Below are positions 40,167 through 63,222 of a stretch of 64,000 nucleotides of DNA, piece after piece. Source of the stretch: Mesorhizobium kowhaii (GTDB lineage: Bacteria > Pseudomonadota > Alphaproteobacteria > Rhizobiales > Rhizobiaceae); assembly GCF_003253745.1 (NCBI RefSeq), contig NZ_MZXV01000080.1, forward strand, positions 330,001 through 394,000, in the 5' to 3' direction. The first letter of the stretch is position 1; each line of letters starts with the position of its first letter. Position numbers and translations under genes: made by a program. The notes beneath the pieces are model-generated. The model was not told the origin of the DNA, made no database searches, and worked only from the letters and a program-made list of their open reading frames with translations.

Positions 40167-40219
40167 TGGTGCCCCTAGCCGGAATCGAACCAGCACTCCT
40201 TGCGGAACTCGATTTTGAG
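40167..40219 (-). other. tRNA-Leu(CAA) 3' half, integration site remnant
   Basis: Read on the minus strand these 53 nt are the 3' part of a class II tRNA: anticodon-loop region CTCAAAA, 3' anticodon stem TCGAG, long variable arm TTCCGCAAGGA, T-arm CTGGTTCGATTCCGG, acceptor strand and encoded CCA. The 5' half is absent; upstream bases do not pair with TCGAG. This is the pattern of a displaced tRNA end after site-specific integration with crossover at the anticodon loop. The integrase gene begins 187 bp away. Confidence 0.8.
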
Positions 40220-40405
40220 CCGTCCATGAGCGGCTATGCTGAACCTCGCCGAATGCAAGTAAGAATGCGAAAACCTACTACGATCAAAGACTTGTCTTGC
40301 ATCGTGGGGTCGCCAACCTTCTCCATGGCTTTCGGCAGTAGCCGGGAGCCGACCGCCTGAGTGCCCCTATTCGGCTCCTAGAATTTTGAGGTTCGGAGAC
40401 GATAG

Positions 40406-46269: not shown

Positions 46270-46860
46270 TCAGCCCGAGGCCAGCCTGACCAGGTTGCTC
46301 CTCGGCTGGCGCGCTGAAAGCAGGGCCGCGAACTGGTCCACGGCCTGCCCGGCTCGCGCCAGGACGAGCGGGTCCACAAGCTTGCCGTCGGCAAAATCGC
46401 TGTCGCTGCCACAGACGGCGCTCGGCACTGTCAGCGCCGAATAAAAGCCGAACAGTGGGCGAAGCTGGTGTTCGACCACCAGCGCGTGGCGCTGGCCACC
46501 GCCAGTCGCGCCGATCAGAACCGGCCGGTCGACGAGCGTCAGCGGATCAATGAGGTCGAACAGATGCTTGAACAGGCCGGCATAGGAGCCGTTGTAGACC
46601 GGCGTCGTCACGATCAGCGCGTCGGCCTGCTCGATGGCCTCCACCACATTCAGCGCCTCCGGCGTCAACTCCTTTCGCGTGAACGCGGCACCCAGACCGC
46701 GGCCGGCATCGACGAGATCGAGGAAATTCGCCGTGACCGACAGTTTTTCGCGCAGCGCCTCACCGAGATGATGCGCCAGCGTCCGTGATTTCGACGGCCT
46801 GTGGGTGTTGCCTGACAGCACGACGACGTTCTGGCGCAGCCGTTCGACATGGAAATTCAT
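46270..46860 (-). CDS. NAD(P)H-dependent FMN reductase (MsuE/SsuE type)
   Basis: A 196-residue flavodoxin-like reductase. The FMN phosphate loop is LSGNTHRPSKSRT and the family segment TTPVYNGSYAGLFKHLFDLI is clear. Such enzymes supply FMNH2 to two-component monooxygenases that split sulfonates and sulfones. Start 46860 has GGGAGAATCC upstream. It lies in the same direction as the aldo/keto reductase and ABC genes and would feed the FMNH2 monooxygenases encoded at 53910 and 59768. Confidence 0.9.
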   Translation of the reverse strand: MNFHVERLRQNVVVLSGNTHRPSKSRTLAHHLGEALREKLSVTANFLDLVDAGRGLGAAFTRKELTPEALNVVEAIEQADALIVTTPVYNGSYAGLFKHLFDLIDPLTLVDRPVLIGATGGGQRHALVVEHQLRPLFGFYSALTVPSAVCGSDSDFADGKLVDPLVLARAGQAVDQFAALLSARQPRSNLVRLASG

Positions 46861-46933
46861 GGATTCTCCCATCTGTCCGATGCGATTGGAAACTCAGGCG
46901 GGGCCACTGACCCCGCCATTTCGTGAGCGACTG

Positions 46934-47989
46934 TCAGGCGGCGCGCAGAGGCCGCGTCAGCGGGATCGGTACTGCCGGCTCCGAACGCGGCACGCGGCCT
47001 TCGACCGGATGGCTCGGATCGTTAAAGCGGTGCGTCGAGGCATGGCCGGCGGTGACGAGGTGGTCGACAAAGGCCTCGTCCTCGGCGCTCAGCCTGAAGT
47101 CCAGTGCCTTGGCGTAGCTGTCCCACTGTTCCTCGGTGCGCGGACCGGCAATTGCCGCCGTGATCAGCCGGTTGTTCAGCACCCAGGCCAACGCGAAATC
47201 GGTGGCGGAGACCCCACGCGACTTTGCGTGCGCGGCGATCTGCCTGGCGATCTCGATCGACTCCGGACGCCATTCGGTCTCGGCGATGCGCTTGTCGCCA
47301 CGGCCGGCTCGCGTGTCCGCCGCAGGCGCCTGGTTCGGCTCGTATTTCCCGGTCAGCACGCCACGCGCCAACGGGCTGTAAGAGACGACGCCGAGACCAT
47401 AATAGGCGGCTGCCGGCAACTGCTCGGCTTCGGCGGTGCGGTTGACGATGTTGTAGAGCGGCTGGCTGGCCACCGGCCGGTCGATGCCGAGTTCATCGGC
47501 CAGATGCGCGACTTCCGCGATGCGCCAGCCACGGAAGTTGGAGACGCCGAAATAACGCAGCTTGCCCTGGCGGATCAGGTCGGCGATCGCCCGCACCGGC
47601 TCTTCCAGCGGCGCATCGAAGACGGCGCGGTGGAAGTAGAAGAGGTCGATGTAGTCGGTTCCGAGGCGCCGCAGGCTGTTCTCGACGGTCTGGATCACCC
47701 ATTTGCGCGAATGGCCGCCGAGATTGGGACCCTTGTCATGCGAGTTGACGAATTTGGTCGCCACAACCCAATGATCGCGCGTCGCCTTGATGCCGCGGCC
47801 GACGACTTCCTCGGACTTGCCATTGTGATAGACGTCGGCGGTGTCGATGAAATTGATGCCTTGCTCGCGCGCCTTGTCGATGATGCGATGCGCGACATTT
47901 TCCTCGGTCGGCCCGCCGAACATCATCGTGCCGAGGCTGAGCGGGGAAACCTTCAGGGCGCTACGGCCAAGATAGCGGTAATCGGACAT
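46934..47989 (-). CDS. Aldo/keto reductase
   Basis: A 351-residue NADPH-dependent oxidoreductase. Tetrad residues are visible in NFIDTADVYHNGKSEEVVG (Asp, Tyr), VVATKF (Lys) and LFYFHR (His), with the C-terminal NADPH loop (AIAGPRTEEQW). It lies 20 bp after the ABC ATPase stop, so it is in the same transcript. It may reduce an aldehyde or ketone released when a carbon-sulfur bond is oxidised. Confidence 0.9.
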   Translation of the reverse strand: MSDYRYLGRSALKVSPLSLGTMMFGGPTEENVAHRIIDKAREQGINFIDTADVYHNGKSEEVVGRGIKATRDHWVVATKFVNSHDKGPNLGGHSRKWVIQTVENSLRRLGTDYIDLFYFHRAVFDAPLEEPVRAIADLIRQGKLRYFGVSNFRGWRIAEVAHLADELGIDRPVASQPLYNIVNRTAEAEQLPAAAYYGLGVVSYSPLARGVLTGKYEPNQAPAADTRAGRGDKRIAETEWRPESIEIARQIAAHAKSRGVSATDFALAWVLNNRLITAAIAGPRTEEQWDSYAKALDFRLSAEDEAFVDHLVTAGHASTHRFNDPSHPVEGRVPRSEPAVPIPLTRPLRAA

Positions 47990-48009: not shown

Positions 48010-48957
48010 TCAGTTGAGGGTTGGTTCGGCGTAATGGCAGGCGACGTGGTGTCCGGGCGCGACCGCCCGGAACGCCGGTTCCTGCGAACGGCAGAGATCA
48101 GTCGCCAGCGGGCAGCGCGTGTGAAAGCGGCAACCGCTCGGGATGTTCTGCGGGCTCGGCAGATCTCCGTGGATCGGTGCGGCCTGGCGACGGCGCGCCG
48201 GGTCGGGCACGGCGTCCATCAGCGCGAGCGTGTAGGGATGCTTCGGCGAGGTCCACAGCGTTGCATTGTCGGCGCTTTCGACGATGCGGCCGAGATACAT
48301 GACCAGCACCCGGTCGGCGAAATAGCGGACCACCGAGAGATCGTGCGAGATGAAGAGATAGGACAGGCCGAGCTGCCGCTTCATGTCGACCAAAAGGTTG
48401 AGGATCTGCGCCTGGATGGAGAGATCGAGCGCCGACACAGGCTCGTCGCAGACGACCAGTTCCGGATTGAGGATCAGCGCGCGGGCAATGCCGATGCGCT
48501 GGCGCTGACCGCCGGAAAATTCATGTGGGTAGCGGCCAAGCGAATCTCTTGGCAAACCGACACGCTCGATGATGTCCTCGACAATCTTGCGCCGCTCGGC
48601 CTTGTTGCCGATGCCATGGACTTTCAGCGGCGCCGTCAAAATATCGCCGATCGTGTGGCGTGGGTTGAGCGACGCGAACGGATCCTGGAAAATCATCTGG
48701 ATGTTGCGCCGCGCCGCCTTCAGCCGGCGAGCGTCGAGCACGGTGATGTCGATGCCGTTGAACTCGATCTTGCCGCCCGTCGGATCGACCAGCCGCATGA
48801 TGGTCTTGCCGAGTGTCGACTTTCCGCAACCGCTCTCGCCGACGAGACCAACCGTTTCGCCGCGCTCGACCTCGAGGGAAACGCCGTCGACGGCGCGCAG
48901 CGCACCACCCTGGGCATGAAAATGCGTGGAGAGGTCAGAGACCGAAAGCAGCGCCAT
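48010..48957 (-). CDS. Oligopeptide/dipeptide-type ABC transporter ATPase (DppF-like)
   Basis: A 315-residue ATPase. Walker A is GESGCGKSTLGK, signature FSGGQRQRIG, Walker B LVVCDEPVSALD, and it has the C-terminal cysteine-rich SGCRFHTRCPLATDLC extension of the Opp/Dpp family that binds an iron-sulfur cluster. GGAGG precedes the ATG, which lies inside the DppD-like gene (23-bp overlap). Confidence 0.93.
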   Translation of the reverse strand: MALLSVSDLSTHFHAQGGALRAVDGVSLEVERGETVGLVGESGCGKSTLGKTIMRLVDPTGGKIEFNGIDITVLDARRLKAARRNIQMIFQDPFASLNPRHTIGDILTAPLKVHGIGNKAERRKIVEDIIERVGLPRDSLGRYPHEFSGGQRQRIGIARALILNPELVVCDEPVSALDLSIQAQILNLLVDMKRQLGLSYLFISHDLSVVRYFADRVLVMYLGRIVESADNATLWTSPKHPYTLALMDAVPDPARRRQAAPIHGDLPSPQNIPSGCRFHTRCPLATDLCRSQEPAFRAVAPGHHVACHYAEPTLN

Positions 48958-49933
48958 GCGCAACCTCCGGAATGAAGCTGTAGGGGCAAGCCACCAACCG
49001 GTCTTCGCTGACTTCGACGAGATCGGGCACGAAATGGGCGCAGCTGTCGCGCGCCACCGCGCAACGCGGCCGGAACGGGCAGCCCTTCTCGCCGGCGGCC
49101 GAGACGATGCTGCCGGGAATCTCCGTCAGCCTGGCGTCGCGGTAATGGAGATTGGTCTTCAGCCGCGGCGACGCCGCCAGCAGGCCGCGCGTGTAGGGAT
49201 GAAGCGGGGTTCTGAACAATGCACCTGGCAGTGCCTGCTCGACCTTGCGGCCGGCATACATGACCACGACCTTGTCGGCCCATTGCGCGACGACACCGAG
49301 ATCGTGGGTGATGAGCACCACCGCCATAGACAATTCGCGGCGCAGCGTATCGAGGAGGTCGAGCACCTGCGCCTGGATGGTCACGTCCAAAGCCGTCGTA
49401 GGCTCGTCGGCGATCAGCAGGCGCGGCCGGCAGGCAACGGCGATGGCGATCATGACGCGCTGGCGCATGCCGCCGGAAAGCTGGTGCGGATAGTCGTCGA
49501 TGCGCCGCTGCGGATCGGGAATGCGCACCAGATTGAGAAGCTCGATGGCACGGCTCCGCGCTGCCTTGCCGCGTATGCCTTCGTGTAGTGTCAGCACCTC
49601 GGTGATCTGCCGGCCGATGGTCAGCACTGGATTGAGCGACGTCATCGGCTCCTGGAAGATCATCGCGATCTCGCGTCCGCGCAGGTTCCGCATCGCCTTC
49701 TGGTCGAGACCGAACAGGTCCCTGCCGGCGAATTCGATCCGGCCGTTGGGGATTTTTGCCGAGCGCGGCAAAAGCTGCATCAGGGCAAGTGCTGTCAGCG
49801 ACTTGCCGGAGCCCGATTCACCGACGATCGCCAGCGTCTCGCCTTCGCCAACCTCGAAGCTCAGCCGGCTGACCGGCTCGGTGGTCGGGAAGCGAACCGT
49901 CAGATTGTCGACCTTGAGCAAAGGAGCGGCCAT
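48935..49933 (-). CDS. Oligopeptide/dipeptide-type ABC transporter ATPase (DppD-like)
   Basis: A 332-residue partner ATPase. Walker A is [11 protein letters not shown], signature [10 protein letters not shown], Walker [13 protein letters not shown], and it also has the cysteine-rich C-terminus ([15 protein letters not shown]). Start 49933 has AGGAGCG upstream. The longer open frame to 50629 is antisense noise from the permease. It pairs with the DppF-like ATPase. Confidence 0.93.
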
Positions 49934-49935
49934 CT

Positions 49936-50934
49936 CTAGCGCTCCTGCGAGAAGCGCGGATTGAGCGCGTCGTTGAGGCCGTCGCCAATTAGGTTCAGCG
50001 CCAGCACGGTGAAGACGATCGCCAGTCCCGGAAGCGCCGTCAGATACCAGGCGGTGCGGATCAGTTCCCTGCCCGCTCCGATCATCGAACCCCAACTGAC
50101 GACGTTGGGATCGCCGAGACCCATGAAGGACAGCGCCGATTCCATCAGGATCGCGGTTGCCACCATCACCGATGAGGTCACGATCAAAGGCGGCAGCGCA
50201 TTGGGCAGGATCTCGCGGAAGATGATGCGGGCATGGCCGTAGCCGAGGCTGCGGGCGGCCATGACGAAATCCTTCTCGCGAATAGCCCGGAATTCGGCAC
50301 GGGTCAGCCGCGCCACCGTCGGCCAGGTGATGACGGCGATCGCCACCGTCACCACAGGCGCGGTCGGCTGCGCGATCGCCACCATGACCACCAGAAGCAC
50401 GAAGCTCGGAATGGTCTGAAATATCTCGATCAGGCGCACCAGCAGGTCGTCGATCCAGCCGCCGAAATAGCCGGCGGTGGCGCCGACAAGGATGCCGAAG
50501 CTGAGACCGAGCGCGGTCGCCACCAGGCCGACGAACAGCGAAATCCGGGCGCCATGCAGGATGCCGGAAAGCACGTCGCGGCCCATGGAATCCGTGCCCA
50601 GCGGGAAGGCCGGATTCTGGCCCGGCCACAGGAAGGGCCGCGCCACCATCGACAACGGATCGGCCGGATAGACGACGGGCGCCAGCAGGGCAGCCAGCAC
50701 GACCAGCGACAGGAACACCACGCCGAACATGGCGTTGGGATTGCGCAGGAAAACCTTCAGCGCCCGGCCACCGGCGGCAATAGGTACCGACGCCGCCGAG
50801 GCAGAGCGCGCGTCCGGCGCGTGGAGGTTGCTCCAGCTCCTGGCTTCGGGTTCAGCCGGTACCGCAGGCTCGCGAGCCTCGGCATAGGCGCGGCGGGAGC
50901 GGGCCTCGCCGGCGGTGAAATCGGTGGAAGCCAT
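49936..50934 (-). CDS. Peptide-type ABC transporter permease (DppC-like)
   Basis: A 332-residue inner-membrane permease with a long polar N-terminus (about 55 residues), the OppC-N segment FLRNPNAMFGVVFLSLVVLA, FPLGTDSMGRDVLS and the EAA loop (EFRAIREKDFVMAARSLGYG). It ends 3 bp before the DppD-like ATG region, and its own ATG overlaps the upstream permease stop (TGATG). Confidence 0.93.
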   Translation of the reverse strand: MASTDFTAGEARSRRAYAEAREPAVPAEPEARSWSNLHAPDARSASAASVPIAAGGRALKVFLRNPNAMFGVVFLSLVVLAALLAPVVYPADPLSMVARPFLWPGQNPAFPLGTDSMGRDVLSGILHGARISLFVGLVATALGLSFGILVGATAGYFGGWIDDLLVRLIEIFQTIPSFVLLVVMVAIAQPTAPVVTVAIAVITWPTVARLTRAEFRAIREKDFVMAARSLGYGHARIIFREILPNALPPLIVTSSVMVATAILMESALSFMGLGDPNVVSWGSMIGAGRELIRTAWYLTALPGLAIVFTVLALNLIGDGLNDALNPRFSQER

Positions 50935-51920
50935 CAGCGTACTCCGATGCGGGGATCGAGCCAGGCGTGCAGCAGATCGACCGTCGCATTGGCGACGATG
51001 ACCAGCAGCGACGACAGCAGCAGGATGCCGAGCAGCACGGTAAAATCGCGGCCCATGACCGCCTCGAAGGCAAGACGCCCGAGGCCAGGCCAGGAATAGA
51101 CAGTCTCGACGACCACGGCACCGCCAAGCATGCCGCCAACATGCATGCCGGCCATGGTGGTGATGGGGATCAGCGCGTTGCGCAAGACATGCCGGATGGT
51201 GATGACGGTCGGCGACAGGCCCTTGGCGGCGGCGGTGCGCACATAGTCCTGCGACTGGACTTCCAGCATTGCCGCGCGGGTCAGCCGCGCATAGATCGCC
51301 ACGTAGAACAGTGCCAGCGACAGCGCCGGCAGGATCATGTAGCGCACCTTGTCCCAGAGACCGGCAAGGCCGGTCAGGTTGCTGCCGATGGTTCCCGAAC
51401 CGCCACTCGGCAGCCAGCCTAGCTTGACCGAGAACAGCACGATCAGCATCAACCCGATCCAGAAGCCCGGGATCGAATAGAACAGCAGCGAAACGACCGA
51501 AAGCAGACGATCCGGCAGGCGACCGGAGAACACTGCCATCAACGATCCGAGGACGAGACCGAGTGCGATGGCGATGGTCAGCGCCACCGCCATCAGCAAC
51601 AGCGTTCCCGGTAGCCGCTGGCCGATCAGGTCGGCGACCGGCATGCCGTAGCGCGGCGAAAAGCCGAGGCTGAAATGCGCCAGGTTGTAGAGATAGTTGA
51701 ACAGCTGGACGAGCAGCGGATTGTCGAGCCCGAAGCGCTGGCGCAGCGCCGCCATGGTTTCCACCGTGGCCGAACCGGCCTCGCCAGCCATGACGTCGGC
51801 GGCATCGCCCGGCGCAAGCTGCAGCAGGAAGAAGTTCAGGACGACGATGCCCAGAACCGTCGGCACCGCCTGGATGGCCGTGCGTCGGAAGGTTCTGCCA
51901 ATGCGCGTCAGGGTCGACAT
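50934..51920 (-). CDS. Peptide-type ABC transporter permease (DppB-like)
   Basis: A 328-residue permease, first gene of the minus-strand operon dppB-dppC-dppD-dppF-AKR-FMN reductase. It has the OppB-type N-terminus (AVPTVLGIVVLNFFLLQLAP), several helices, and the EAA loop DYVRTAAAKGLSP. It diverges from the binding-protein gene across the 314-bp AT-rich region. Confidence 0.93.
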   Translation of the reverse strand: MSTLTRIGRTFRRTAIQAVPTVLGIVVLNFFLLQLAPGDAADVMAGEAGSATVETMAALRQRFGLDNPLLVQLFNYLYNLAHFSLGFSPRYGMPVADLIGQRLPGTLLLMAVALTIAIALGLVLGSLMAVFSGRLPDRLLSVVSLLFYSIPGFWIGLMLIVLFSVKLGWLPSGGSGTIGSNLTGLAGLWDKVRYMILPALSLALFYVAIYARLTRAAMLEVQSQDYVRTAAAKGLSPTVITIRHVLRNALIPITTMAGMHVGGMLGGAVVVETVYSWPGLGRLAFEAVMGRDFTVLLGILLLSSLLVIVANATVDLLHAWLDPRIGVR

Positions 51921-52234
51921 CGTTTTCGCTATCCCGGCTGTGGCTGACGATGCGGGTTTGCTGTTTCCCGGAAAGTTCCGCGCTTTTTAGTTGACAAGAT
52001 TTATAGACATTGTCAAATCTGATTTAAGAAATTTTATTCTGTAAATGGCGACATTGCAGAATAGAATTTTATTTCATGCTACAAAAATAGCTGTTTGAAG
52101 TATGAAATCTTAAGTGCGGGAGCAGAGCGGCCAAATCTTTTCACAAACGGGCCGGCTCTTGGAACGATGGATTTTTTACCCGGCTGTCGACGACCGGCCG
52201 ATCGATGCCGGCAGCAAAAAAGGACCAGAGCGCC
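51921..52234. promoter_or_regulatory. AT-rich divergent control region of the transporter locus
   Basis: 314 bp, much more AT-rich than its surroundings between 51990 and 52100. Inverted arms TTGACAA (51991-51997) and TTGTCAA (52010-52016) enclose TTTATAGACATT (52000-52011), a 12-mer shared with 45458-45469. A second, longer inverted repeat pairs AAATTTTATTCTG (52029-52041) with CAGAATAGAATTTT (52057-52070), one mismatch in 13. Both likely bind a regulator of the divergent operons. No regulator gene is adjacent. Confidence 0.6.
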
Positions 52235-53845
52235 ATGTCTCATTTCCTCACGCCGAACCGCCGCAGGTTCCTTGGCCTGTCGGCAACCGCGCTCGGAGCG
52301 GCCCTGTTGCCTGCATCGCGCAGCGCCTACGCAGCCGAGCCGAGACTGGGTGGGACGGCGACGCTGCTGCTCTCGGCCGAGCCGCCGGTGCTGACGACGA
52401 TCGCCCACACGGCGTTCAATTCCGTCTACGTCTCGGCAAAGACCACCGAGGGTCTGCTGACCTATGATTTCGATCTCACGCCGCGCCCGTCGCTGGCCAG
52501 GCAATGGTCGGTCAGCGACGATGGCCTGCAATACACCTTCAAACTGGGCGAAGGTGTGAAGTGGCATGATGGCCAGCCATTCACCGCCGCTGACGTCGCC
52601 TACTCGATCGCCACGATCAAGGATGTTCATCCGCGTGGCCGCAACACCTTCCTCAATCTTGTCGACATCCAGACACCGGATCCGCTGACCGTGACACTGG
52701 TCCTGTCGAAGCCGGCGCCTTACCTGATCACGGCGCTGGCCGCGGCCGAGACGCCGATCGTGCCCAAGCACCTCTATGACGGCAGCAAGGCAGCCGAAAA
52801 TCCGGTCAACAACGCGCCGGTCGGCACCGGCCCGTTCGTCTTCAAGGAATGGGTCCGCGGCAGCCACATCGTCTACGACCGCAATCCAGACTATTGGGAT
52901 GCGCCGCGCCCCTATCTCGACCGGCTGATCGTCCGTTTCATCCCCGACGCTTCGGCGCGCGCGCTGGCGCTGGAGACCGGCGAGATCGACCTGGCGCCGG
53001 CAACGCCGATCCCGTACAGCGATTTGCAGCGCTTCGAAACGCTGCCGCATATCGGCTTCGAGAAGCAGGGCTATCAGTATTCCAATGGTGTCAGCCGGGT
53101 CGAGTTCAACCTGGAGAAGCCCTACTTCCAGGATGTTCGGGTCCGCCGCGCCTTCGCCCACGTCATCGACCGCAACGTCATCCGCGACACGATCAACTAT
53201 GGCTATGGCGAGACCATTCCCGGTCCGATCAACCCCAATCTGAAAAAGTGGTTCGTCGCCGACCTGAAGACCTATCCGGTCGACGCAGCCGCCGCCGAGA
53301 AACTGCTCGACGAAGCAGGCTTGCCGCGCGACGCCGACGGCACACGCCTCAAGCTTGTCCACGACTATGTCCCGAGCGGCGAGACCTACAAGCGCGGCGC
53401 CGACTACATCAAGCAGGCACTGGCCGCGGTCGGTGTCGAGGTCACCGTGCGCAGCCAGGATTTCGCCACCTACACAAAGCGCATCTACACCGACCGCGAT
53501 TTCGACTTCACCTTCAACGGCATGAGCAATCTGTTCGACCCGACGGTCGGCGTGCAGCGGCTCTACTGGTCGAAGAATTTCAAGCCGGGCGTGCCGTTCT
53601 CCAACGGGTCGAAATACAGCAATCCCAAGGTGGATGAGCTGCTTGAAGCGGCCGCCGTCGAGGTCGATCACGAAAAGCGCTTCGAGCAATGGGCCGCGAT
53701 CCAGCAGATCCTTGTCGAGGACCTGCCCGACATCGGCATCGTTAGCCAGCCGGAAATCACCCTCTACAACAGGCGCATCGCCGATCACACGGTGGGCGCC
53801 GAGGGCAATGCCGGTAGCCTCGCTTCAGCCCATATCGTCGCCTGA
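52235..53845 (+). CDS. Tat-exported ABC substrate-binding protein (SBP family 5)
   Basis: A 536-residue peptide/nickel-type binding protein. A twin-arginine leader (NRRRFLGLSATALGAALLPA) ends near AYA. The family 5 signature region is LARQWSVSDDGLQYTFKLGE and VKWHDGQPFTAADVAYSI. It should deliver the substrate to the divergent DppBCDF-like transporter. ATG 52235 keeps the RR motif near the N-terminus; 52205 is a possible longer start. It resembles the partial binding protein at 63223 (both have QRLYWSKN). Confidence 0.93.
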   Translation: MSHFLTPNRRRFLGLSATALGAALLPASRSAYAAEPRLGGTATLLLSAEPPVLTTIAHTAFNSVYVSAKTTEGLLTYDFDLTPRPSLARQWSVSDDGLQYTFKLGEGVKWHDGQPFTAADVAYSIATIKDVHPRGRNTFLNLVDIQTPDPLTVTLVLSKPAPYLITALAAAETPIVPKHLYDGSKAAENPVNNAPVGTGPFVFKEWVRGSHIVYDRNPDYWDAPRPYLDRLIVRFIPDASARALALETGEIDLAPATPIPYSDLQRFETLPHIGFEKQGYQYSNGVSRVEFNLEKPYFQDVRVRRAFAHVIDRNVIRDTINYGYGETIPGPINPNLKKWFVADLKTYPVDAAAAEKLLDEAGLPRDADGTRLKLVHDYVPSGETYKRGADYIKQALAAVGVEVTVRSQDFATYTKRIYTDRDFDFTFNGMSNLFDPTVGVQRLYWSKNFKPGVPFSNGSKYSNPKVDELLEAAAVEVDHEKRFEQWAAIQQILVEDLPDIGIVSQPEITLYNRRIADHTVGAEGNAGSLASAHIVA

Positions 53846-53909: not shown

Positions 53910-55094
53910 ATGACGCTCGCCCACAAGCCTGGTTCCATCGTCGGCACACCCTTCTTCAAGGCGCCGACCGACTATCCGGACAGCCCGCTGTCGAAAGCGC
54001 TTCAGCAGCCGGTGCTGCTCGGGCTGTTCCTGCCGATCCAGGCCGGCGGCTGGACCAACTCCACCCTGCCGCGCTCGACCGACTGGCGCTTCGACTACAA
54101 TCGCGACCTGACGCTCAAGGCCGAAGAGCTTGGCTTCGACCTCGTCTTCGCGCTCAGCCAATGGCTGCCCAAGGGCGGCTACGGCGGTGTCTTCAACGGC
54201 CAGGCGCTGGACAGCTTCGTGTCCGTCGCGGCCATGGCCGCGATCACCAAAAAGATCATGCTGATCTCGACCATGCATGTTCTCTATGGGCCCTGGCATC
54301 CGCTGCATCTGGCCAAATTCGGCGCCACGCTCGACCATATTTCCGGCGGCCGCTGGGGCATCAACGTGGTCACCGGTCATCGCGCCGTCGAACATGAAAT
54401 GTTCGGCTGGAACCGGATCGAGCATGACCGCCGCTACGAACTGGCGGCCGAATTCGTCGAGGTGCTGCAGCGGCTGTGGCAGGATGATGAGAATTTCTCC
54501 TTCTCCGGAGAATCGAGCTGGAAGCTCAATGGCGGCTTCGTCACGCCGAAGCCGAATTACGGTCGGCCGATCCTGGTCAACGCCACCGGCTCCGATGCCG
54601 GCATCGCCTTTGCCGGCCGTTACTCCGACATCGTCTTCGTCACCAGCCCGGCCGGCTCCGACATCGCCAGCGCGCTGGAGGCACTGCCGGCGCATACCAA
54701 GAAGGTCAAGGACGCAGCCCTCGGCGTCGGCCGCACCGTGCGCACGCTGCTCAATCCGCTGGTCATCAGCCGTCCGACCGAGAAGGAAGCCTGGGCGGTC
54801 GCCGACGAGATCGTCGCCCATGCCGACAGCCGCACGCCGAAAGGCTTCCAGACCTTCAACAGCGACGCCCAGGCATGGAAGGGCCGCGAAGGCCGCGACG
54901 ATCCCTACGCCAAGGTCGGCGGCAACATCTATCTCATCGGCACGCCCGAACAGATCGTCGACCAGTTCGTCAAGCTCAAGGACGCCGGCATAGACGGCCT
55001 GCAGCTGTCCTTCTTCGACTTCAAGCCCGACCTCGAATTCTTCGGCGAGAACATCCTGCCGCTGATGAAGCAGGCCGGCCTGCGCAACGCCTGA
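53910..55094 (+). CDS. FMNH2-dependent LLM monooxygenase (SfnG/SsuD-like)
   Basis: A 394-residue luciferase-like monooxygenase. Family blocks are TLKAEELGFDLVFALSQW, MHVLYGPWHPLHLAKFGATL, DHISGGRWGINVVTGH and the C-terminal LIGTPEQIVDQFVKL. The pattern is closest to SfnG (dimethyl sulfone monooxygenase) and RutA/SsuD relatives, which use FMNH2 and O2 to break carbon-sulfur or carbon-nitrogen bonds. It follows the binding protein by 64 bp and precedes the DszB-like gene by 9 bp, so the three are one operon. Confidence 0.88.
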   Translation: MTLAHKPGSIVGTPFFKAPTDYPDSPLSKALQQPVLLGLFLPIQAGGWTNSTLPRSTDWRFDYNRDLTLKAEELGFDLVFALSQWLPKGGYGGVFNGQALDSFVSVAAMAAITKKIMLISTMHVLYGPWHPLHLAKFGATLDHISGGRWGINVVTGHRAVEHEMFGWNRIEHDRRYELAAEFVEVLQRLWQDDENFSFSGESSWKLNGGFVTPKPNYGRPILVNATGSDAGIAFAGRYSDIVFVTSPAGSDIASALEALPAHTKKVKDAALGVGRTVRTLLNPLVISRPTEKEAWAVADEIVAHADSRTPKGFQTFNSDAQAWKGREGRDDPYAKVGGNIYLIGTPEQIVDQFVKLKDAGIDGLQLSFFDFKPDLEFFGENILPLMKQAGLRNA

Positions 55095-55103
55095 GGAGTA
55101 TTC

Positions 55104-56141
55104 ATGACCACGACTGCGATCTCCGAAATCTGGTACACACGCTGCCCGGTGCCGACGCCTGTCGGGCTTGCGGCGCAGCTCGGGCTCTTGGACGAGACCT
55201 TCCGCAAGGAAGGGATCGAATTGAAGTCGATCATCGACTCGCCCAACCGCGATATCCGCCAGAGCCATTTCAACCACACGCTCGACTGGTCGTTCCGCCA
55301 CGGCGGCAACGTGCCGCCGATCCGCGCGCGCTCCGAAGGGCGCAAGACGCGTCTCGTCGGCATCACCTGGACCGACGAATTCCAGGCGATCACCACCTTG
55401 CCCGGTACCGGCATCCGGACGACCCAGGACCTGAAAGGCCGCCGCTTCGGCATCGCCCGGCGCCCCGAAGGCATTGTCGACTTCATGCGGGCGACGGCGT
55501 TGAAGGGACTGGTCTCGGCGCTGTCGCTCGAAGGCCTCAGCCATGCCGACGTCGAGATTGTCGACATCGCGCTGACCGACAGCGTGCTCGATGGCCAGGA
55601 AGGACCATCGCTGTTCGGCCTCAAGCGCAAGCAGGTCTATGGCGAGGAGGCCGCCGCGCTAATCCGTGGCGAGGTCGACGCCATCTATGTCAAAGGCACG
55701 GCCGGCATCAATGTCGCCAATCTGATCGGCGCCATCCAGGTCGCCGAATTCGGCTTCCACCCCGACCCGAACATCCGCATCAATTCCGGTTCGCCGCGTG
55801 TGCTGACCGTCGATGATCTGCTGGCCGAAGAGCGCCCCGATCTGGTCGCGCGCCTGATCGAGACGATCCTGCGCGCCAGCACCTGGGCCGAGGCGCATCC
55901 GGACGAGACGCGCCGCTTCGTCGCCCGCGAATCCGGCGCCACCGAAGAACAGGTGCTGGCTGCCAACGGGCCGGATGTCCACAAGCATCTCGGCCTCGGA
56001 CTGCAGCCCGAGCTCGTCGCGGCGGTTTCCCACTACAAGGATTTCCTGCGCGACTGGGGTTTTCTCGCCAGCGATTTCGACGTCGGAACATGGGTCGATC
56101 GCCGGCCGCTCGATCTGGTGACCATCCGCGCCGCCGCCTGA
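55104..56141 (+). CDS. DszB-like aromatic/organic sulfinate desulfinase
   Basis: A 345-residue protein of the SsuA/periplasmic-binding fold but with no signal peptide, so cytoplasmic. Compared from memory with Rhodococcus DszB, the catalytic Cys27 (SNCPVPN) matches C14 (TRCPVPT), His60 matches H55 (QSHFNH) and Arg70 before GG matches R65 (SFRHGG). The His-Arg spacing of ten residues is identical, and IPP and TRLLGIT also match (VPP, TRLVGIT). DszB hydrolyses a sulfinate to release sulfite. General annotation pipelines would call this an ABC substrate-binding protein. The substrate is unknown. Confidence 0.75.
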   Translation: MTTTAISEIWYTRCPVPTPVGLAAQLGLLDETFRKEGIELKSIIDSPNRDIRQSHFNHTLDWSFRHGGNVPPIRARSEGRKTRLVGITWTDEFQAITTLPGTGIRTTQDLKGRRFGIARRPEGIVDFMRATALKGLVSALSLEGLSHADVEIVDIALTDSVLDGQEGPSLFGLKRKQVYGEEAAALIRGEVDAIYVKGTAGINVANLIGAIQVAEFGFHPDPNIRINSGSPRVLTVDDLLAEERPDLVARLIETILRASTWAEAHPDETRRFVARESGATEEQVLAANGPDVHKHLGLGLQPELVAAVSHYKDFLRDWGFLASDFDVGTWVDRRPLDLVTIRAAA

Positions 56142-56151
56142 GAGGAAGCTC

Positions 56152-57372
56152 ATGACCTCGACGATCCCCGAATTTCCGCAACTTCTCGACACGGCAGCTG
56201 GCCTTGCCGACGACTTCGCGCTGACCGCCGCGCATCACGACGCGACCGGGGAATTTCCCTTCGCCAATTTCGGCCGGCTTCACCAGGCCGGGCTGCTTGG
56301 TCTGGTCACGGCGCGCGAGCATGGCGGCTTGGGTGGCGGGCTGACGGAAGCCCAGGCGGTGATCGCCGAGATCGGCCGTGGCGAACCGTCGACCGCGCTG
56401 GTGCTGGCCATGCATTACAACAGCCAGTATGCGCTGCGGAAATCCGGGAAATGGCCGCGCCATCTGGTGCAGCGCATTGTCGAGGCCGGCCGTCTCGGCC
56501 CTGCCTTGATCAACGCCGCGCAGGCCGAGCCGGGGATCGGCTCACCCGCCCACGGCAAGCCGCCCGAAACCATTGCCCGGCGCGACGGCAATGTCTGGCG
56601 GATAACCGGCCACAAGAACTACGTCACCGGCATTCCCATCCTGACATGGGTGAACCTGCTGGCGCTGACCGACGAGCCGCAACCGCGCCTCGCCTCGTTC
56701 CTGGTGCCGACCAATGCGCCGGGGTTGCGCGTCGAAAAGACATGGAACGCCGCCGGCATGCGGGCCACCTCCAGCGACGATGTCATTCTCGACAATGTCG
56801 CGGTGCCCATCGAAGACATCACCGAGGCGCAACCAGCGTCCGAACCGCTTCGACGTGAAGAAGGATCGACGGCGTTCTTCTTTTCACTGATCGGCGCCGT
56901 CTACCACGGTGCGGCCCGCGCTGCCCGTGACCGGCTGGTCTCCTTCGTCACCACGCATGCGCCGGCGAGCCTCGGCGCGCCGCTGTCGACCGTGCCGCAC
57001 ATCCAGGTGGGGCTGGGCGAGATCGAGGTCCGGCTTGCGACCAGCACGCGGCTGCTGCGTTCGCTCGCCGAAGACGTCGACGCCGGCCGGCCGGTCGGCA
57101 CCGACGGCATGACGGTCAGGCATGTCGTCATCGACAATGCCGTTGCCGTCACCTCGCTGGCGCTGGAGCTTGCTGGTAATCCTGGCCTTAACAGAGATTT
57201 CCAGCTCGAGCGTCACCACCGCGATGCGCTGACCGCACGCTCGCACGCGCCGCAGAACCATATGATCCGCACGATCGCCGCCAAGGCGGCGCTTAGCCGC
57301 CACGCTGCCGGCCAAGTGGCAGAGCCGCCGGCTATTGCCGCTGTCAAACACAGGCTAAAGGCGGTCGGGTGA
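56152..57372 (+). CDS. Acyl-CoA dehydrogenase-fold flavoprotein (DszC/SfnB-like)
   Basis: A 406-residue protein with the ACAD N-terminal helical domain (FGRLHQAGLLGLVTAREHGG), the middle beta domain (RITGHKNYVTGIPILTWVN) and a C-terminal helical domain. In sulfur loci this fold is often an FMNH2 monooxygenase (DszC oxidises dibenzothiophene to the sulfone; SfnB acts in sulfone use). Position after the LLM and DszB-like genes suggests a similar oxygenation role. It overlaps the next gene by 4 bp (GTGA). A true acyl-CoA dehydrogenase cannot be excluded. Confidence 0.82.
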   Translation: MTSTIPEFPQLLDTAAGLADDFALTAAHHDATGEFPFANFGRLHQAGLLGLVTAREHGGLGGGLTEAQAVIAEIGRGEPSTALVLAMHYNSQYALRKSGKWPRHLVQRIVEAGRLGPALINAAQAEPGIGSPAHGKPPETIARRDGNVWRITGHKNYVTGIPILTWVNLLALTDEPQPRLASFLVPTNAPGLRVEKTWNAAGMRATSSDDVILDNVAVPIEDITEAQPASEPLRREEGSTAFFFSLIGAVYHGAARAARDRLVSFVTTHAPASLGAPLSTVPHIQVGLGEIEVRLATSTRLLRSLAEDVDAGRPVGTDGMTVRHVVIDNAVAVTSLALELAGNPGLNRDFQLERHHRDALTARSHAPQNHMIRTIAAKAALSRHAAGQVAEPPAIAAVKHRLKAVG

Positions 57373-58679: not shown

Positions 58680-59771
58680 CTACGCCGCTTCCACCAGCCT
58701 GGCCGACTGGAAGTCATGCAGGAGGATGGCGATCTCGAAGCCGCGCCGCTGCAGCCAGTGCGCCGTCGTCGCCGCGCGAACGCCAAGCAGATCGTCGATC
58801 AGAACGACCCGGGCGCCGCGCACCGCGATGCTGCGGTAGGCGACGCCGAGCAACTGCCCGCCCTCCGACGCGATCGAGCCCGGAATGTGCGCTTTGGCGA
58901 ATTCCTCCGGCGTGCGCACGTCGAGCAAATAGGTCGTCCGCTTATCGTCCTTCGCCCAGGCTTCGGCCGCCGCCGCATCGATGCGGGGAAAGCTGTCGCC
59001 TCCGGCAAGTTTTGCGATGTGCTCACCGGCGAAGCGCCTGGCGTTCTCGCTGGCCGGACCATAGACGGCGGTCTTGCCGGTTTCCAGCGCAAGACCAGCC
59101 TCGCGCCACGCCTTGGTGCCGTCGTGCAGATAGGCGACCCTGTTGGGCACGCCGGCGTCGATCAGCGTTTGCGCGCCGATGATGGCGCGCGGCAGGCCGG
59201 CGCAGGAGACAACCACCTGCGTCTCCGGCGACGGCACCAGGTCGGCGAAGCGCAGCACCAGCTCGGCGCCCGGCACGCTGATGGCGCCCGGCACATGGTC
59301 CTTGTCGAACTCCGCCACCGTTCGGCTGTCGAGCACGACCACGTCGGTGCCCTGGCGCCTGAGCGCCACGAGTTCTTCAGCGGTAATGACCGGCGTTCCC
59401 TTCTCGTCGCGGATCGCCAGCGAAAAATCGACGCCCGGCGTGTCGAAGGTCGGCAAGCCTTCCACGCCACCTTTCGTCCATTCCGGAATTCCACCGGCCA
59501 GTGCGAAAAGCTGGCTGCGACCATGCCCGGTCAACCGTTCGACAAGTTGCTCGGCAACGCCGCTGCCGTCATCGGCCAGCACGGTGCGCACCGATTTGCG
59601 CGGGATGAAGCGGTCGATCTCCGCTTCGACCTGATCCGCGGGCAGATTGGTGGCAAACAGCGGCGACGCATATCCGACAGTCGCGCTGTCTCGGATATCC
59701 AGCACCGCCAGTTCTTCCCCATCGGCCAGCCATTGGCGAAACGTTTCCGAATCGATCGTGCTCGCGTTCAT
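58680..59771 (-). CDS. Three-domain rhodanese-like sulfurtransferase
   Basis: A 363-residue protein of three rhodanese domains (about residues 1-110, 125-230 and 260-363). Only the middle domain has a catalytic cysteine in the expected loop (VVVSCAGLPRA). Domain 1 (VLADDGSGVAEQL) and domain 3 (VLIDDLLGVRAA) have Asp at that place and are inactive or structural. Rhodaneses move sulfane sulfur. Its ATG overlaps the stop of the LLM gene (ATGA), so sulfur handling is coupled to the monooxygenase. It converges with the class A monooxygenase gene. Confidence 0.92.
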   Translation of the reverse strand: MNASTIDSETFRQWLADGEELAVLDIRDSATVGYASPLFATNLPADQVEAEIDRFIPRKSVRTVLADDGSGVAEQLVERLTGHGRSQLFALAGGIPEWTKGGVEGLPTFDTPGVDFSLAIRDEKGTPVITAEELVALRRQGTDVVVLDSRTVAEFDKDHVPGAISVPGAELVLRFADLVPSPETQVVVSCAGLPRAIIGAQTLIDAGVPNRVAYLHDGTKAWREAGLALETGKTAVYGPASENARRFAGEHIAKLAGGDSFPRIDAAAAEAWAKDDKRTTYLLDVRTPEEFAKAHIPGSIASEGGQLLGVAYRSIAVRGARVVLIDDLLGVRAATTAHWLQRRGFEIAILLHDFQSARLVEAA

Positions 59772-61126
59772 GATGCTTTCCTCTCCTGATGCTCGGCGGC
59801 GCCGCGGACCGGACGCGCAAGGCCGAGATTCTCGCGCAACGTCCTGCCTTCGTAAGCGGTGCGGAACAGGCCCCGCCGCTGCAGTTCCGGGATGACGAGG
59901 TCGACGAAATCGGTGAGGCCCGTCGGCAGGATCGGCGGCATGACGTTGAAGCCGTCCGCCGCCCCGCCGGTGAACCACTCTTCCATCATGTCGGCGACAT
60001 CCTTCGGCGTGCCGACGATCTGGAAATGGCCACGTGCGCCGGCAATGGCGAGATACAATTGCCGGATGGTCAGGTTCCGGCTCGCGGCCAATTCGGAAAC
60101 GACCTTCAGGCGGCTCTTCACCGCATCGGAACTGCCGAGTTCCGGCAGCGGTCCGTCGAGCGGATGGCCGGATAGATCGACGCCGCCGAGCAAGCCGGAA
60201 ACCAGCGCCACGCCAACCACCGGATCGACCAGGCGTTGGATGGCGTCGAACTTGTCCTCGGCCTCCGTGCGCGTCGGCGCAACGACCGGGAAGACACCTG
60301 GCATGATCTTCAAGGAATCGGCAGAGCGGCCAAAGCCCCCCAGCCGGCCTTTCAGCTCGGTGTAAAAACCGCGCGCCGATTCAAGGGTGGGATGGGCGGT
60401 GAAAACCACCTCCGCCGTCCTGGCTGCCAGTTGCTGGCCGGCATCGGAAGAACCGGCCTGAACGATGACGGGATGGCCCTGCGGAGGGCGGGCGACGTTG
60501 AGCGGTCCCTTGACGCGGAAATGCCGGCCAACGTGGTCAGGGGCATGGATACCGTGCCGTTCGATGGCGATCCCCGAAGCCTTGTCGGCGACGAAGGCAT
60601 CGTCGTCCCAGCTGTCCCAGAGCTTCTGCGCCACGGCAACAAACTCTTCCGCGCGGTCGTAGCGGTCGGCATGGACGGGATGCTGGTCGCGGCTGAAATT
60701 GGCGGCCGCCGGCGCGTCGGCCGAGGTGACGTCATTCCAGCCTGTCCGGCCGCCGCTTAGATGGTCGACCGAAGCGAATAGGCGCGCCAGATGGAAAGGT
60801 TCCCAATAGGTGGTCGAGGCGGTCGCGACGAGCCCGATCCTCTGCGTGATGGTCGAGAGGGCCGACAAAAGCGTCAGCGGCTCGAAATGCACGACATGGC
60901 CGGTGCGTTCGAAAGTCTCGATCGGTTGCTCGCCATTGCGCGCGCTGAGGCTGTCGGCGAGGAAGACCATGTCGAAGAGACCGCGCTCGGCGGTGCGCGC
61001 GGCGTCCGCATAGTGCTGAAAACTCAGGCCCGGATTGGCGGGCACATCGGGATGGCGCCAGGCGGCGACATGATGGCCAGGTCCGCGGACGAAGGCTCCA
61101 AGCCTTATCTTTCGATCTTTAGTCAT
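59768..61126 (-). CDS. NtaA/SnaA/DszA-type FMNH2 monooxygenase
   Basis: A 452-residue LLM flavoprotein, almost the length of DszA. Typical blocks are LGAFVRGPGHHVAAWRHPDV, GLFDMVFLADSLSARN, FASVDHLSGGRTGWNDVTS and HPVIVQAGSSDAGQQLA. The family includes DBT-sulfone, nitrilotriacetate, EDTA and alkanesulfone-type monooxygenases. It needs FMNH2, which the reductase at 46270 could supply. GAGAG lies upstream of ATG 61126. It is first in a two-gene operon with the rhodanese. Confidence 0.93.
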   Translation of the reverse strand: MTKDRKIRLGAFVRGPGHHVAAWRHPDVPANPGLSFQHYADAARTAERGLFDMVFLADSLSARNGEQPIETFERTGHVVHFEPLTLLSALSTITQRIGLVATASTTYWEPFHLARLFASVDHLSGGRTGWNDVTSADAPAAANFSRDQHPVHADRYDRAEEFVAVAQKLWDSWDDDAFVADKASGIAIERHGIHAPDHVGRHFRVKGPLNVARPPQGHPVIVQAGSSDAGQQLAARTAEVVFTAHPTLESARGFYTELKGRLGGFGRSADSLKIMPGVFPVVAPTRTEAEDKFDAIQRLVDPVVGVALVSGLLGGVDLSGHPLDGPLPELGSSDAVKSRLKVVSELAASRNLTIRQLYLAIAGARGHFQIVGTPKDVADMMEEWFTGGAADGFNVMPPILPTGLTDFVDLVIPELQRRGLFRTAYEGRTLRENLGLARPVRGAAEHQERKAS

Positions 61127-61311
61127 CGGCGGCTCTCGGGCTGGTCGCAAAGGGGCTTCCTATCTAGCGCCTGCCAAACGCGCTGAGCGAAAGAATGCCT
61201 TTCGCCAGCTGGCAATTATTGTTTTTTGACATCGGGTTATGGGACAGCACGATGGCCACTGCCGAGGCGATGGGCTAGAGCCACGCACCGCCGGCGTCGC
61301 AAAGGTTCTTG
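61127..61311. promoter_or_regulatory. Divergent control region, LLM versus FAD/NAD(P)-binding gene
   Basis: 185 bp with the perfect palindrome GCCAGCTGGC (61204-61213) and a TTGACA hexamer at 61225-61230 on the plus strand. These could serve the divergent genes, but no regulator is identified. Confidence 0.35.
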
Positions 61312-62766
61312 ATGCCTCATACCCCCTCTTCCCCGCCGTCGATCATCCCCCCGCATTCGATCCCGCGCTCGATCATTATTGTGGGCGGTGGCTTTGCCGG
61401 CGCCCTTACCGCGATCAAATTGCTTGACCGTTCGACGGAGCCGCTGGCGATCACCATGATCGAGCGCCGGGCCCAGCTTGGTCGTGGCGTAGCCTACGGC
61501 ACCGCCGATCCGCAACACCTCGTCAACGGCGCGGCGCGCATCTTCTCGCTGCATCCGGACGATCCCGATCACCTCGTTCGCTGGCTGCTGGCGAATGGAC
61601 CCGACCACGGCTGGACGCCGCCCGCGGATGTGCCGGACTCCAGCCCGCCGCGTTGGCTGTTCGGCAGCTATGTCCAGTCGGAACTGACCAGAGCGATCCG
61701 AGAAGCTGACGGGCGTTCGTCACTGCGCCACATCAAGGCATCCGCCGTCGATATGCTGACCGGTCCATCCGGAGTCTGCGTCGGCACCAGCGACGGCCAG
61801 CAATTGCTGGCGGATGAGGCCGTGCTGGCGACAGGCGTTTTTCAGAGCGAGCCCTCCGCCACGGAAGCAGCAATCGTCAGCGATCCCCGCTATGTCGCAA
61901 ATCCCTGGGATTCAGCAGCGCTGGACCGGCTCGCCGGCAGCAAGGAACTGCTGCTGATCGGTTCCAGTCTGAGCATGGTCGACGTCGTCGCCAGCATGGA
62001 GGCACGCGGCTTCGAGGGCCGCTATCGCGTGGTGTCGCGGCGGGGACAGATTGTCGAGCCACGGCGCAACACCGAGGCGTGGCGCGACTTCCTCGTCGAC
62101 CGGCCATTGCCTAAAACCGCCAGCGCGCTGCTCGCCTCGGTCAAGGCCGAACGTCGGGCGATCGCTGCCGCCGGGCTGGACTGGCAAGGGCTGCCGCTGA
62201 CCATCCGGCCGTGGATCCTGGCCTTGTGGCAAGGCGCCACCGACAGGGAGCGTCTGAAGTTCACACGCCACCTCCGCGCTTTCTGGGACGTCACCGCGCA
62301 CCGTGCGGCACCGCCGAGCTTTGAGCGCGTTGCACTGGCGCAGAAGCAAGGCCGCTGGACGGCGGGAGCCGGACGGGTCCTTGGACTCTATCCCGAAGCC
62401 ACGGGCATCGCAGCCGAGATCCGCTGGCGCGATACCGGCGCGGTCGAACGCGTGCGCTTCGATGGTATCGTCAACTGCCGCGGCCATCAGGAGCATGATT
62501 GGCGGCGGATCGCCGATCCGTTTGTCCACGGCCTGCTCGAGAACGGCATCGTCAGACCGCACGCAACCGGCTTCGGCATCGACGCCACGCATGACGGCCG
62601 GGTGATTTCCGGTGACGGCAGGACCCATGGCAATCTCTTTGCCATCGGCCACCCGCTGCGCGGCGTCGCCTGGGAATCGAGTTCCATCGGCGAACAGCTT
62701 GCGCAAGCCATCGCCCTTGCCAACCTTCTGGTCGGGGCCAGCCCAAAGCTGCGTGCTCTGGCCTGA
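61312..62766 (+). CDS. FAD/NAD(P)-binding protein (YdhS-like)
   Basis: A 484-residue dinucleotide-binding protein. The N-terminal Rossmann motif is IIVGGGFAGALTAIKL, followed by RGVAYGTADPQHLVN (the NAD_binding_9 pattern), a second nucleotide motif (LLLIGSSLSMVDVVA) and a C-terminal ATG-like end (IGHPLRGVAWESSSIGEQLA). Members are uncharacterised oxidoreductases often beside sulfur or siderophore genes. ATG 61312 with AAAGG upstream is chosen over TTG 61309. It may take part in the sulfur locus, but this is only positional. Confidence 0.85.
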   Translation: MPHTPSSPPSIIPPHSIPRSIIIVGGGFAGALTAIKLLDRSTEPLAITMIERRAQLGRGVAYGTADPQHLVNGAARIFSLHPDDPDHLVRWLLANGPDHGWTPPADVPDSSPPRWLFGSYVQSELTRAIREADGRSSLRHIKASAVDMLTGPSGVCVGTSDGQQLLADEAVLATGVFQSEPSATEAAIVSDPRYVANPWDSAALDRLAGSKELLLIGSSLSMVDVVASMEARGFEGRYRVVSRRGQIVEPRRNTEAWRDFLVDRPLPKTASALLASVKAERRAIAAAGLDWQGLPLTIRPWILALWQGATDRERLKFTRHLRAFWDVTAHRAAPPSFERVALAQKQGRWTAGAGRVLGLYPEATGIAAEIRWRDTGAVERVRFDGIVNCRGHQEHDWRRIADPFVHGLLENGIVRPHATGFGIDATHDGRVISGDGRTHGNLFAIGHPLRGVAWESSSIGEQLAQAIALANLLVGASPKLRALA

Positions 62767-62977
62767 GGTTGCTCACCCTGCAAAAGGACAGAAACGAAAA
62801 GCGCGGCATCGAGATGCGGCTCTTTTCCGGTCCTATGTAGCAAAGCACCAACTTCCCGCACGACCTAAAGGGTGGATTCCCATAACATCGTCACGGAAGT
62901 TCACGACGCTATTCCGGGCGATCCAGCCGAATAGCTAGCCATAGGGTTGGCCGGCTGAATGTGCTATGATTCGGCAC
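62767..62977. other. Intergenic region with possible terminator
   Basis: An imperfect hairpin, GAAAAGCGCGGCATC (62795-62809) with GATGCGGCTCTTTTC (62812-62826), two mismatches in 15 and ending in TTTT, follows the FAD/NAD(P)-binding gene. It could be its terminator. Nothing else was recognised. Confidence 0.35.
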
Positions 62978-63156
62978 ATGGGAAAGAAGGCAAAGCAGAA
63001 AGCAAAGCAGGCGATTGAAGCCCCATTAGAAGGCAGGCTTGAAAGGGAAGCTACTATGCCCGCAAGGTCGGCATCACTAGAGACGAGGCTCTCACGATCA
63101 TCCGGGAAGCCCACCAGCCGAAGCTTTCCATAGTCCGCAAGGACAAGGCCGGATAG
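62978..63156 (+). pseudogene. Frameshifted small DUF3606-like protein
   Basis: ATG 62978 begins MGKKAKQKAKQAIEAPLEGR, then the frame becomes serine/arginine-rich. In a neighbouring frame from about 63050 a coherent helical sequence follows (YYARKVGITRDEALTIIREA, then KLSIVRKDKAG) to TAG 63154-63156. One missing A near 63050 would join them into a ~60-residue protein of the DUF3606-like type. Low to moderate support. Confidence 0.4.
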
Positions 63157-63222
63157 TCACCCCGACACCTTTGGTGCTTTTGCTACATAAGACCGATCTT
63201 TTCTTTCTGGTTGCCCGCAGAT

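Follow-up and report, generated by a model that had tools for sequence, protein, structure and literature searches.

The question raised by this locus is whether a gene of Mesorhizobium kowhaii whose product would be labelled as part of a transport system encodes an enzyme that releases sulfite from sulfinates. The open reading frame concerned lies at 55104..56141 on the plus strand of the window (the whole stretch of 64,000 nucleotides that was analysed), begins with ATG and codes for 345 aa, exactly where the first-pass annotation had placed it. That annotation had read the product as a cytoplasmic desulfinase of the DszB type and had expected automated pipelines to name it an ABC substrate-binding protein. 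About the label it was right: the plasmid matches listed covered 60 of 98 records and included 46 homologues at 60% identity or more, of which 17 were annotated under the match, and all 17 read 'ABC transporter substrate-binding protein'. We are fairly confident that this name hides a DszB-family sulfinate desulfinase.

The limits of the gene already bear on the question. The open frame around it measures 348 aa, with only three codons upstream of the start, so a longer start carrying a signal peptide is impossible; a signal-peptide or start-site artefact was thereby ruled out, and the absence of a signal peptide that had been pointed out before is borne out. In the predicted model the first strand is at residue 8, and an export signal of the SsuA kind was not found. 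The protein matches the Pfam family NMT1 (46.2 bits, cut-off 20.5) and scores 83.4 bits with the SsuA model TIGR01728, below the cut-off of 163.5.

When the protein was compared with all PDB chains by phmmer, the only strong matches were the two DszB sequences (E of 6.3e-13 for the wild type, 2de2, and 2.2e-11 for the C27S form), the next best standing at 0.17. DszB and the protein are 25-29% identical overall (90 identical positions among 307 aligned in the family-guided alignment). Both the phmmer alignment with 2de2 and the family-guided alignment put C14 on C27, H55 on H60 and R65 on R70, which confirms the pairing with the DszB triad that had been proposed. The family-guided alignment also upheld the distance of ten residues from His to Arg, the same in the two proteins, and the glycine and proline pairs that follow (G67/G68 on G72/G73, P71/P72 on P76/P77); the R-x-G-G motif reads R65-H-G67-G68 here, and the distance from Cys to His is 41 against 33 in DszB. 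C14 is the single cysteine of the protein, as is Cys27 in DszB 21-351. In DszB, Cys27 is essential, Arg70 is part of the conserved R-x-G-G motif and the H60Q change lowers activity about 17-fold, as described in PMC6100217; since this change costs only about 17-fold, conservation of the His is by itself a weak sign. Close to C14, Y11 falls on Tyr24 and T12 on Ser25, and T12 retains the hydroxyl that, in Ser25, is described as hydrogen-bonding His60 (PMC6100217). Other positions differ: Tyr63 and Gln65 of DszB are replaced by H58 and L60, and R13, H58, K197, R225 and R232, which never vary across the 22 aligned rows, face a different residue or a gap in DszB. A Thi5-like pyrimidine synthase, considered as another identity, was rejected at an E of only 0.17 by sequence and a Z of about 17 by fold.

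Relatives were fetched from named genomes with six peptide patterns, and the best 80 of 125 (62-96% identity) were kept. Their hosts belong mostly to Rhizobium, Agrobacterium, Neorhizobium, Devosia, Ensifer/Sinorhizobium and Mesorhizobium, and Acetobacter, Sphingobium and Variovorax contribute one locus each. Together with the window's own copy (L001) and ten loci from a scan of 101 genomes they make up 91 loci with 101 DszB-like ORFs. The C/H/R triad is kept in 82/82 of the ORFs at 62% identity or more (a set that includes the window itself and likely duplicates) and in 17 of the 19 below 62%, the two exceptions being L085, with an export-type leader, and a Ser/Tyr variant in Devosia; these counts carry a mild bias, as one of the six patterns contains C14, unlike the profile search of whole genomes, which returned Ser variants too. 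Most close relatives (77/82) have a single Cys and the other five have two. Among the DszB-like rows selected for the tree described below, 28 of 33 have the full triad and all 33 the R-x-G-G; the five others have Ser in place of the catalytic Cys, one of them also Tyr in place of the His, so the family includes members that are likely non-catalytic. None of the 20 binding-protein-type rows has C, H or R at the respective triad columns (a 21st, SBP_L107, without start Met and without letters at the triad, was dropped).

Serine variants also occur beside complete copies. In four genomes (G155, G159, G239 and G474; loci L119-L122 with L124-L127) a copy with the Cys (WYTRCP) is followed in tandem by a Ser paralogue (WYTHSP) in which His and Arg are retained (L150:9858-13486, L151:8319-11116). 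The C27S form of DszB is reported to be inactive and yet to have been crystallised with substrate (PMC6100217), so the Ser paralogue may, by analogy, be a natural binding-only partner. Elsewhere, L134:5953-7119 of Rhizobium leguminosarum holds a distant DszB-like gene with the triad kept, whose neighbours are genes for 2-hydroxyacyl-CoA dehydratases, activases, rhodaneses and a sulfate permease.

The predicted fold agrees with the alignments. The AlphaFold2 model (mean pLDDT 89.2, pTM 0.87) retrieved DszB first in Foldseek (1e-20 to 9e-20, TM 0.75-0.78) and again in VIA-align (Z 32.4 over 319 residues with rmsd 3.1 and 26% identity; wild-type DszB at Z 30.8), against Z values of 25.5 and 24.5 for SsuA and 19.4 for TauA, so that the comparison with DszB suggested by the first-pass annotation came out with DszB as the best fold match. 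The only stretch under pLDDT 50, residues 164-174, aligns with DszB 191-201 and hence falls inside the mobile loop 187-204, described as turning helical with substrate (PMC6100217). Residues 49-57 of the model form a helix that carries H55 and matches the helix 55-62 described for the substrate-bound state of DszB. Fold match and residue pairing thus speak, though only indirectly, for a clustering of C14, H55 and R65 in space as in DszB. For the phylogeny we built a maximum-likelihood tree of 53 proteins: 33 DszB-like ones (a selection in which the query is joined by seven of its 81 further close relatives and by more distant proteins, and from which L117, a copy close to the query, was dropped beforehand) and 20 of binding-protein type (17 encoded in the window's own genome, three on two plasmids). 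All 33 DszB-like rows, including DszB and a Mycobacterium relative, split from the 20 binding-protein-type rows (100/99); a position within the exported SsuA/TauA proteins, named beforehand as the result that would speak against a desulfinase, was thus not what we found. With the binding proteins as outgroup, the two DszB rows part from the other 31 (91/86, not a starred branch), which makes the rhizobial group look like a sister of DszB rather than DszB proper.

The surroundings of the gene add a second line of evidence. The genes of the region are the following:

46270..46872, minus strand: MsuE-type FMN reductase (220.7 bits, cut-off 212.5)
46934..47989, minus strand: aldo/keto reductase (in 77/80 related loci)
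48010..48963, minus strand: second ABC ATPase of the importer (annotated homologue)
48935..49930, minus strand: ABC ATPase of the importer (putative start, after the length of its homologue annotated in L093)
49936..50934, minus strand: ABC permease of a Dpp/Opp-type importer (annotated homologue)
50934..51920, minus strand: ABC permease of a Dpp/Opp-type importer (annotated homologue)
52205..53845, plus strand: substrate-binding protein of Dpp/Opp type (SBP_bac_5), with an RRRFLG stretch in the leader, 0 Cys and 3 Met
53910..55094, plus strand: DszA/SfnG-class FMN-dependent monooxygenase, 394 aa (53910-55091 used for family scans)
55104..56141, plus strand: predicted DszB-family sulfinate desulfinase, 345 aa, with C14/H55/R65 and R-x-G-G at 65-68
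56152..57372, plus strand: DszC/SfnB-class acyl-CoA dehydrogenase-like flavoprotein, 406 aa
57369..58544, plus strand: FAD-dependent monooxygenase, 391 aa, overlapping the preceding gene by 4 nt (in 19/80 loci)
58680..59777, minus strand: rhodanese-domain sulfurtransferase, sulfur-poor (in 8/80 related loci)
59768..61126, minus strand: NtaA/DmoA-family FMN monooxygenase, sulfur-poor (in 6/80 related loci)

The minus-strand and plus-strand genes diverge from the region 51921-52204. The predicted desulfinase gene is preceded at 9 nt by a gene of the DszA/SfnG class and followed at 10 nt by one of the DszC/SfnB class. Among solved structures the former product is nearest to the dimethylsulfone monooxygenase SfnG (5e-47; DszA 1e-21) and scores 215.7 bits with the SfnG model, short of its cut-off of 382.95; the latter is nearest to the unnamed acyl-CoA dehydrogenase-type structures 5z8t and 5gj7 (about 1e-57), TdsC (2e-13) and DszC (5e-11) being more distant. 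A search of papers for the codes 5gj7 and 5z8t, meant to name these nearest relatives, returned none. With both partners nearest to other families, the locus follows a DszABC-like logic and is not a dszABC operon. The MsuE-type enzyme is the likely source of reduced flavin. Taken together, these partners, the reductase and the importer context strengthen the reading of the protein as a desulfinase. No RNA regulators were detected in the window at gathering thresholds.

How constant this arrangement is was counted in the 80 related loci as matches of at least 40% identity anywhere in the locus, with 8-kb flanks; incomplete loci make these counts lower bounds, and paralogous importers within a locus could inflate those of the importer. 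The permeases were found in 78 and 79 loci, the ATPases in 72 and 78 and the binding protein in 72, the DszC-like gene in at least 70, the DszA-like gene in at least 42 and both of the latter in at least 35, so that a complete A-B-C set is not obligatory; the MsuE-type reductase sits just beyond the 8-kb flank and so outside these counts. Read gene by gene, the Agrobacterium locus L044 has no DszA-like gene between binding protein and desulfinase. In another family of the phylum (L152 in G338) a DszA-like gene, an aldo/keto reductase, a DszB-like gene, a binding protein, two permeases and one ATPase occur together. A second DszB-like gene was present in 16 of the 80 loci (L040, L042, L067, L072 and others), two full-triad copies flanking the DszC-like gene, and one of these loci, L045, has a third copy, a Ser/Tyr variant. 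On pSymA of Sinorhizobium meliloti 2011 (L092:12758-14271) the DszC-like gene between two DszB-like genes lies in two frames; it is annotated as one gene in Sinorhizobium meliloti RCAM1750, whose orthologue of the window's desulfinase-like protein is 74% identical, with the second DszB-like gene behind it.

Another conspicuous property of the region is its economy in sulfur-containing residues. Nine of its proteins (chosen by us as those outside the importer core, leaving out 61309-62766, at 1.44%) average 1.05% Cys+Met, whereas 142 background genes, called with a simple ORF rule on twelve 20-kb pieces of this genome, average 3.24% (p 1.3e-6, one-sided Mann-Whitney test). The importer core, with four proteins at 3.0-4.0%, is ordinary. 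Among 17 other binding proteins of the genome three fall below 1% (L094-L096, 0.31-0.86%), and these are its three best matches to the SsuA model, which fits a link to sulfur supply; the L107 open frame has 0.39%. A comparable economy has been described for the Dsz enzymes of IGTS8 (PMC8557817). The composition supports, short of proof, expression of the region under sulfur starvation. Cys and Met are likewise scarce in two proteins encoded next to the cassette at 61309-63999, a further one that binds FAD/NAD(P) and a second one resembling SBP_bac_5.

From homology, predicted fold, triad, missing export signal, gene order and low-sulfur composition we conclude that the 345-aa protein is probably a cytoplasmic DszB-family sulfinate desulfinase releasing sulfite in organosulfur scavenging. 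The proposal of the first-pass annotation thus finds support in homology, fold, triad, tree and gene context, and from these we infer catalysis, the order of steps and regulation by sulfur limitation. In the scheme that we propose, an organosulfur compound would be taken up by the Dpp/Opp-type importer and its sulfur, unless already a sulfone, oxidised by the DszC-class flavoprotein. The DszA/SfnG-class monooxygenase, using FMNH2 from the MsuE-type reductase, would split the sulfone into a sulfinate and a second product such as an aldehyde, possibly reduced in turn by the aldo/keto reductase, and the DszB-like enzyme would strip off the sulfinate group as sulfite for assimilation. Two routes have been proposed for DszB, in which the Cys either attacks the sulfur as a nucleophile or supplies the proton for an electrophilic substitution (PMC6100217), and C14 could act like Cys27 in either, as proton donor or as nucleophile. 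The predicted role of R65, in the R-x-G-G loop, is to hold the sulfinate, and substrate binding would bring H55 into the pocket. The electrophilic route would require an aromatic or vinyl carbon. The substrate is probably not derived from dibenzothiophene, given the 25-29% identity to DszB and the partners closer to other families; the five invariant residues that differ in DszB, along with the peptide-type importer, suggest that it is polar.

A desulfinase has to be weighed against other functions open to this fold. The annotated one, a substrate-binding protein of an ABC importer, perhaps rendered cytoplasmic through loss of its leader, would account for the SsuA/NMT1 fold, the Pfam NMT1 match and the label in the plasmid records, and an importer is indeed encoded next door. 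That importer, however, is of another type and has an SBP_bac_5 binding protein of its own, the 348-aa frame leaves no room for a signal peptide, the SsuA cut-off is missed (83.4 against 163.5 bits) and the tree sets the protein apart from 20 binding-protein-type rows that lack the triad; we regard this reading as very improbable. An enzyme of the same fold could also have recruited the triad to a new chemistry and cleave something other than a sulfinate, for example as a decarboxylase-like or other lyase. The fold does include 4,5-dihydroxyphthalate decarboxylase, MqnA/MqnD and Thi5, and the invariant R13, H58, K197, R225 and R232, different in DszB, indicate that the substrate probably differs, but neighbours of sulfur-oxidising and sulfone-cleaving classes with an MsuE-type reductase, the low-sulfur composition and the full DszB triad with R-x-G-G make such an activity unlikely.

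At the other extreme, the protein could be a true DszB, with hydroxybiphenyl sulfinate as its substrate and as part of a dibenzothiophene pathway, as triad, fold and A-B-C gene order would allow. A benzothiophene-desulfurising Sinorhizobium strain, KT55, has been reported (cited in PMC3868597), and for a Chelatococcus strain dibenzothiophene desulfurisation and enzymes of the 4S pathway, including the desulfinase, are reported in PMC4839641. The one DszB peptide quoted for Chelatococcus is, however, that of the actinobacterial DszB (it occurs in 2de2) and not of the rhizobial subfamily, and KT55 has, according to PMC4327732, no dibenzothiophene phenotype. The identity of 25-29%, the replacement of Tyr63 and Gln65 by H58 and L60 and partners not nearest to DszA or DszC point the same way, and we give this possibility hardly any credence. 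A sulfinate desulfinase distinct from DszB proper is the reading that we retain.

Seen in this light, the locus shares features with several known systems. With DszB (2'-hydroxybiphenyl-2-sulfinate desulfinase; PDB 2de2, 2de3) it has in common the fold, the triad, the R-x-G-G, a single Cys in the compared stretch, the A-B-C gene order and a mobile loop at the same place; it differs in the rhizobial R13, H58, K197, R225 and R232, in partners nearer to other families and in the importer and aldo/keto reductase of the cassette. The bdsABC genes of Gordonia terrae C-6, as described in PMC3868597, likewise comprise a desulfinase and two monooxygenases, with ABC transporter genes numbered nearby; they are strongly up on benzothiophene relative to sulfate, and Escherichia coli extracts with bdsABC turned benzothiophene into o-hydroxystyrene. 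The transporter adjacent to bdsABC is, however, of sulfonate type, peptide-type ones being induced at other gene numbers (PMC3868597). For IGTS8, PMC8557817 tabulates a chromosomal 'SsuA/DszB' protein, placed before the proteins whose levels fall in dibenzothiophene culture. The sulfonate and taurine binding proteins SsuA and TauA resemble our protein in overall fold (Z up to 25.5), but it lacks the leader, has the triad and stands on a separate branch. As to the SfnG/MsuE route from dimethylsulfone to methanesulfinate, the neighbouring monooxygenase is nearest to SfnG, and the reductase scores above the cut-off for MsuE. In that pathway the sulfinate is further oxidised to the sulfonate; here the SfnG cut-off was missed and the sulfinate would instead be taken by the desulfinase.

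In fuel desulfurisation DszB is known as the slow final enzyme; few of its relatives have, to our knowledge, been characterised. In the open-access literature, mostly judged by title and the start of the abstract, we found no paper on the rhizobial subfamily, the Chelatococcus study PMC4839641 coming nearest. On a judgement that we hold evenly balanced, DszB could be one twig of a broad, largely misannotated desulfinase family of soil and root bacteria, in which the window's subfamily, equipped with a peptide-type importer and an aldo/keto reductase of its own, would draw on a polar organosulfur compound that occurs naturally in the rhizosphere for its sulfur, and in which some branches would pair a catalytic Cys copy in tandem with a natural Cys-to-Ser one, probably binding-only. 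The presence of a well-conserved family in rhizobial genomes and plasmids, including pSymA of Sinorhizobium meliloti, would suggest that sulfinate desulfination is a normal route of sulfur acquisition for root bacteria. It would also correct an annotation that hides desulfinases among transport proteins and supply a new stock of enzymes for desulfurisation work; strains with the cassette should be able to grow with some sulfone or sulfinate as their only source of sulfur in a gene-dependent manner.

The distribution of the subfamily across genomes is patchy. Among the 101 genomes scanned (the window's own and others of the genus, family and order), near-identical copies occur in the window's genome and in G044, with weak matches (25-32% identity) in eight other genomes and a second one in G044; with a profile at E 1e-30, 5 of 151 genomes of the family and 7 of 398 of the phylum proved to contain relatives. 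Plasmids gave 98 matching records. Identity reaches at least 60% in 75 of these; Sinorhizobium accounts for 51 of the 98, and 61 were typed as conjugative. In the window, an integrase gene (Pfam Phage_integrase, 1.5e-20, at 40406-41776 within 40160-41776) adjoins what looks by eye like a tRNA 3' end on the minus strand, so that the cassette may sit in an integrated island; ARAGORN called no tRNA within the window. A dszABC set (L130:437-4118), made up of a monooxygenase, a desulfinase 65% identical to DszB and dszC, lies beside transposases on a plasmid of Mycobacterium intracellulare subsp. yongonense.
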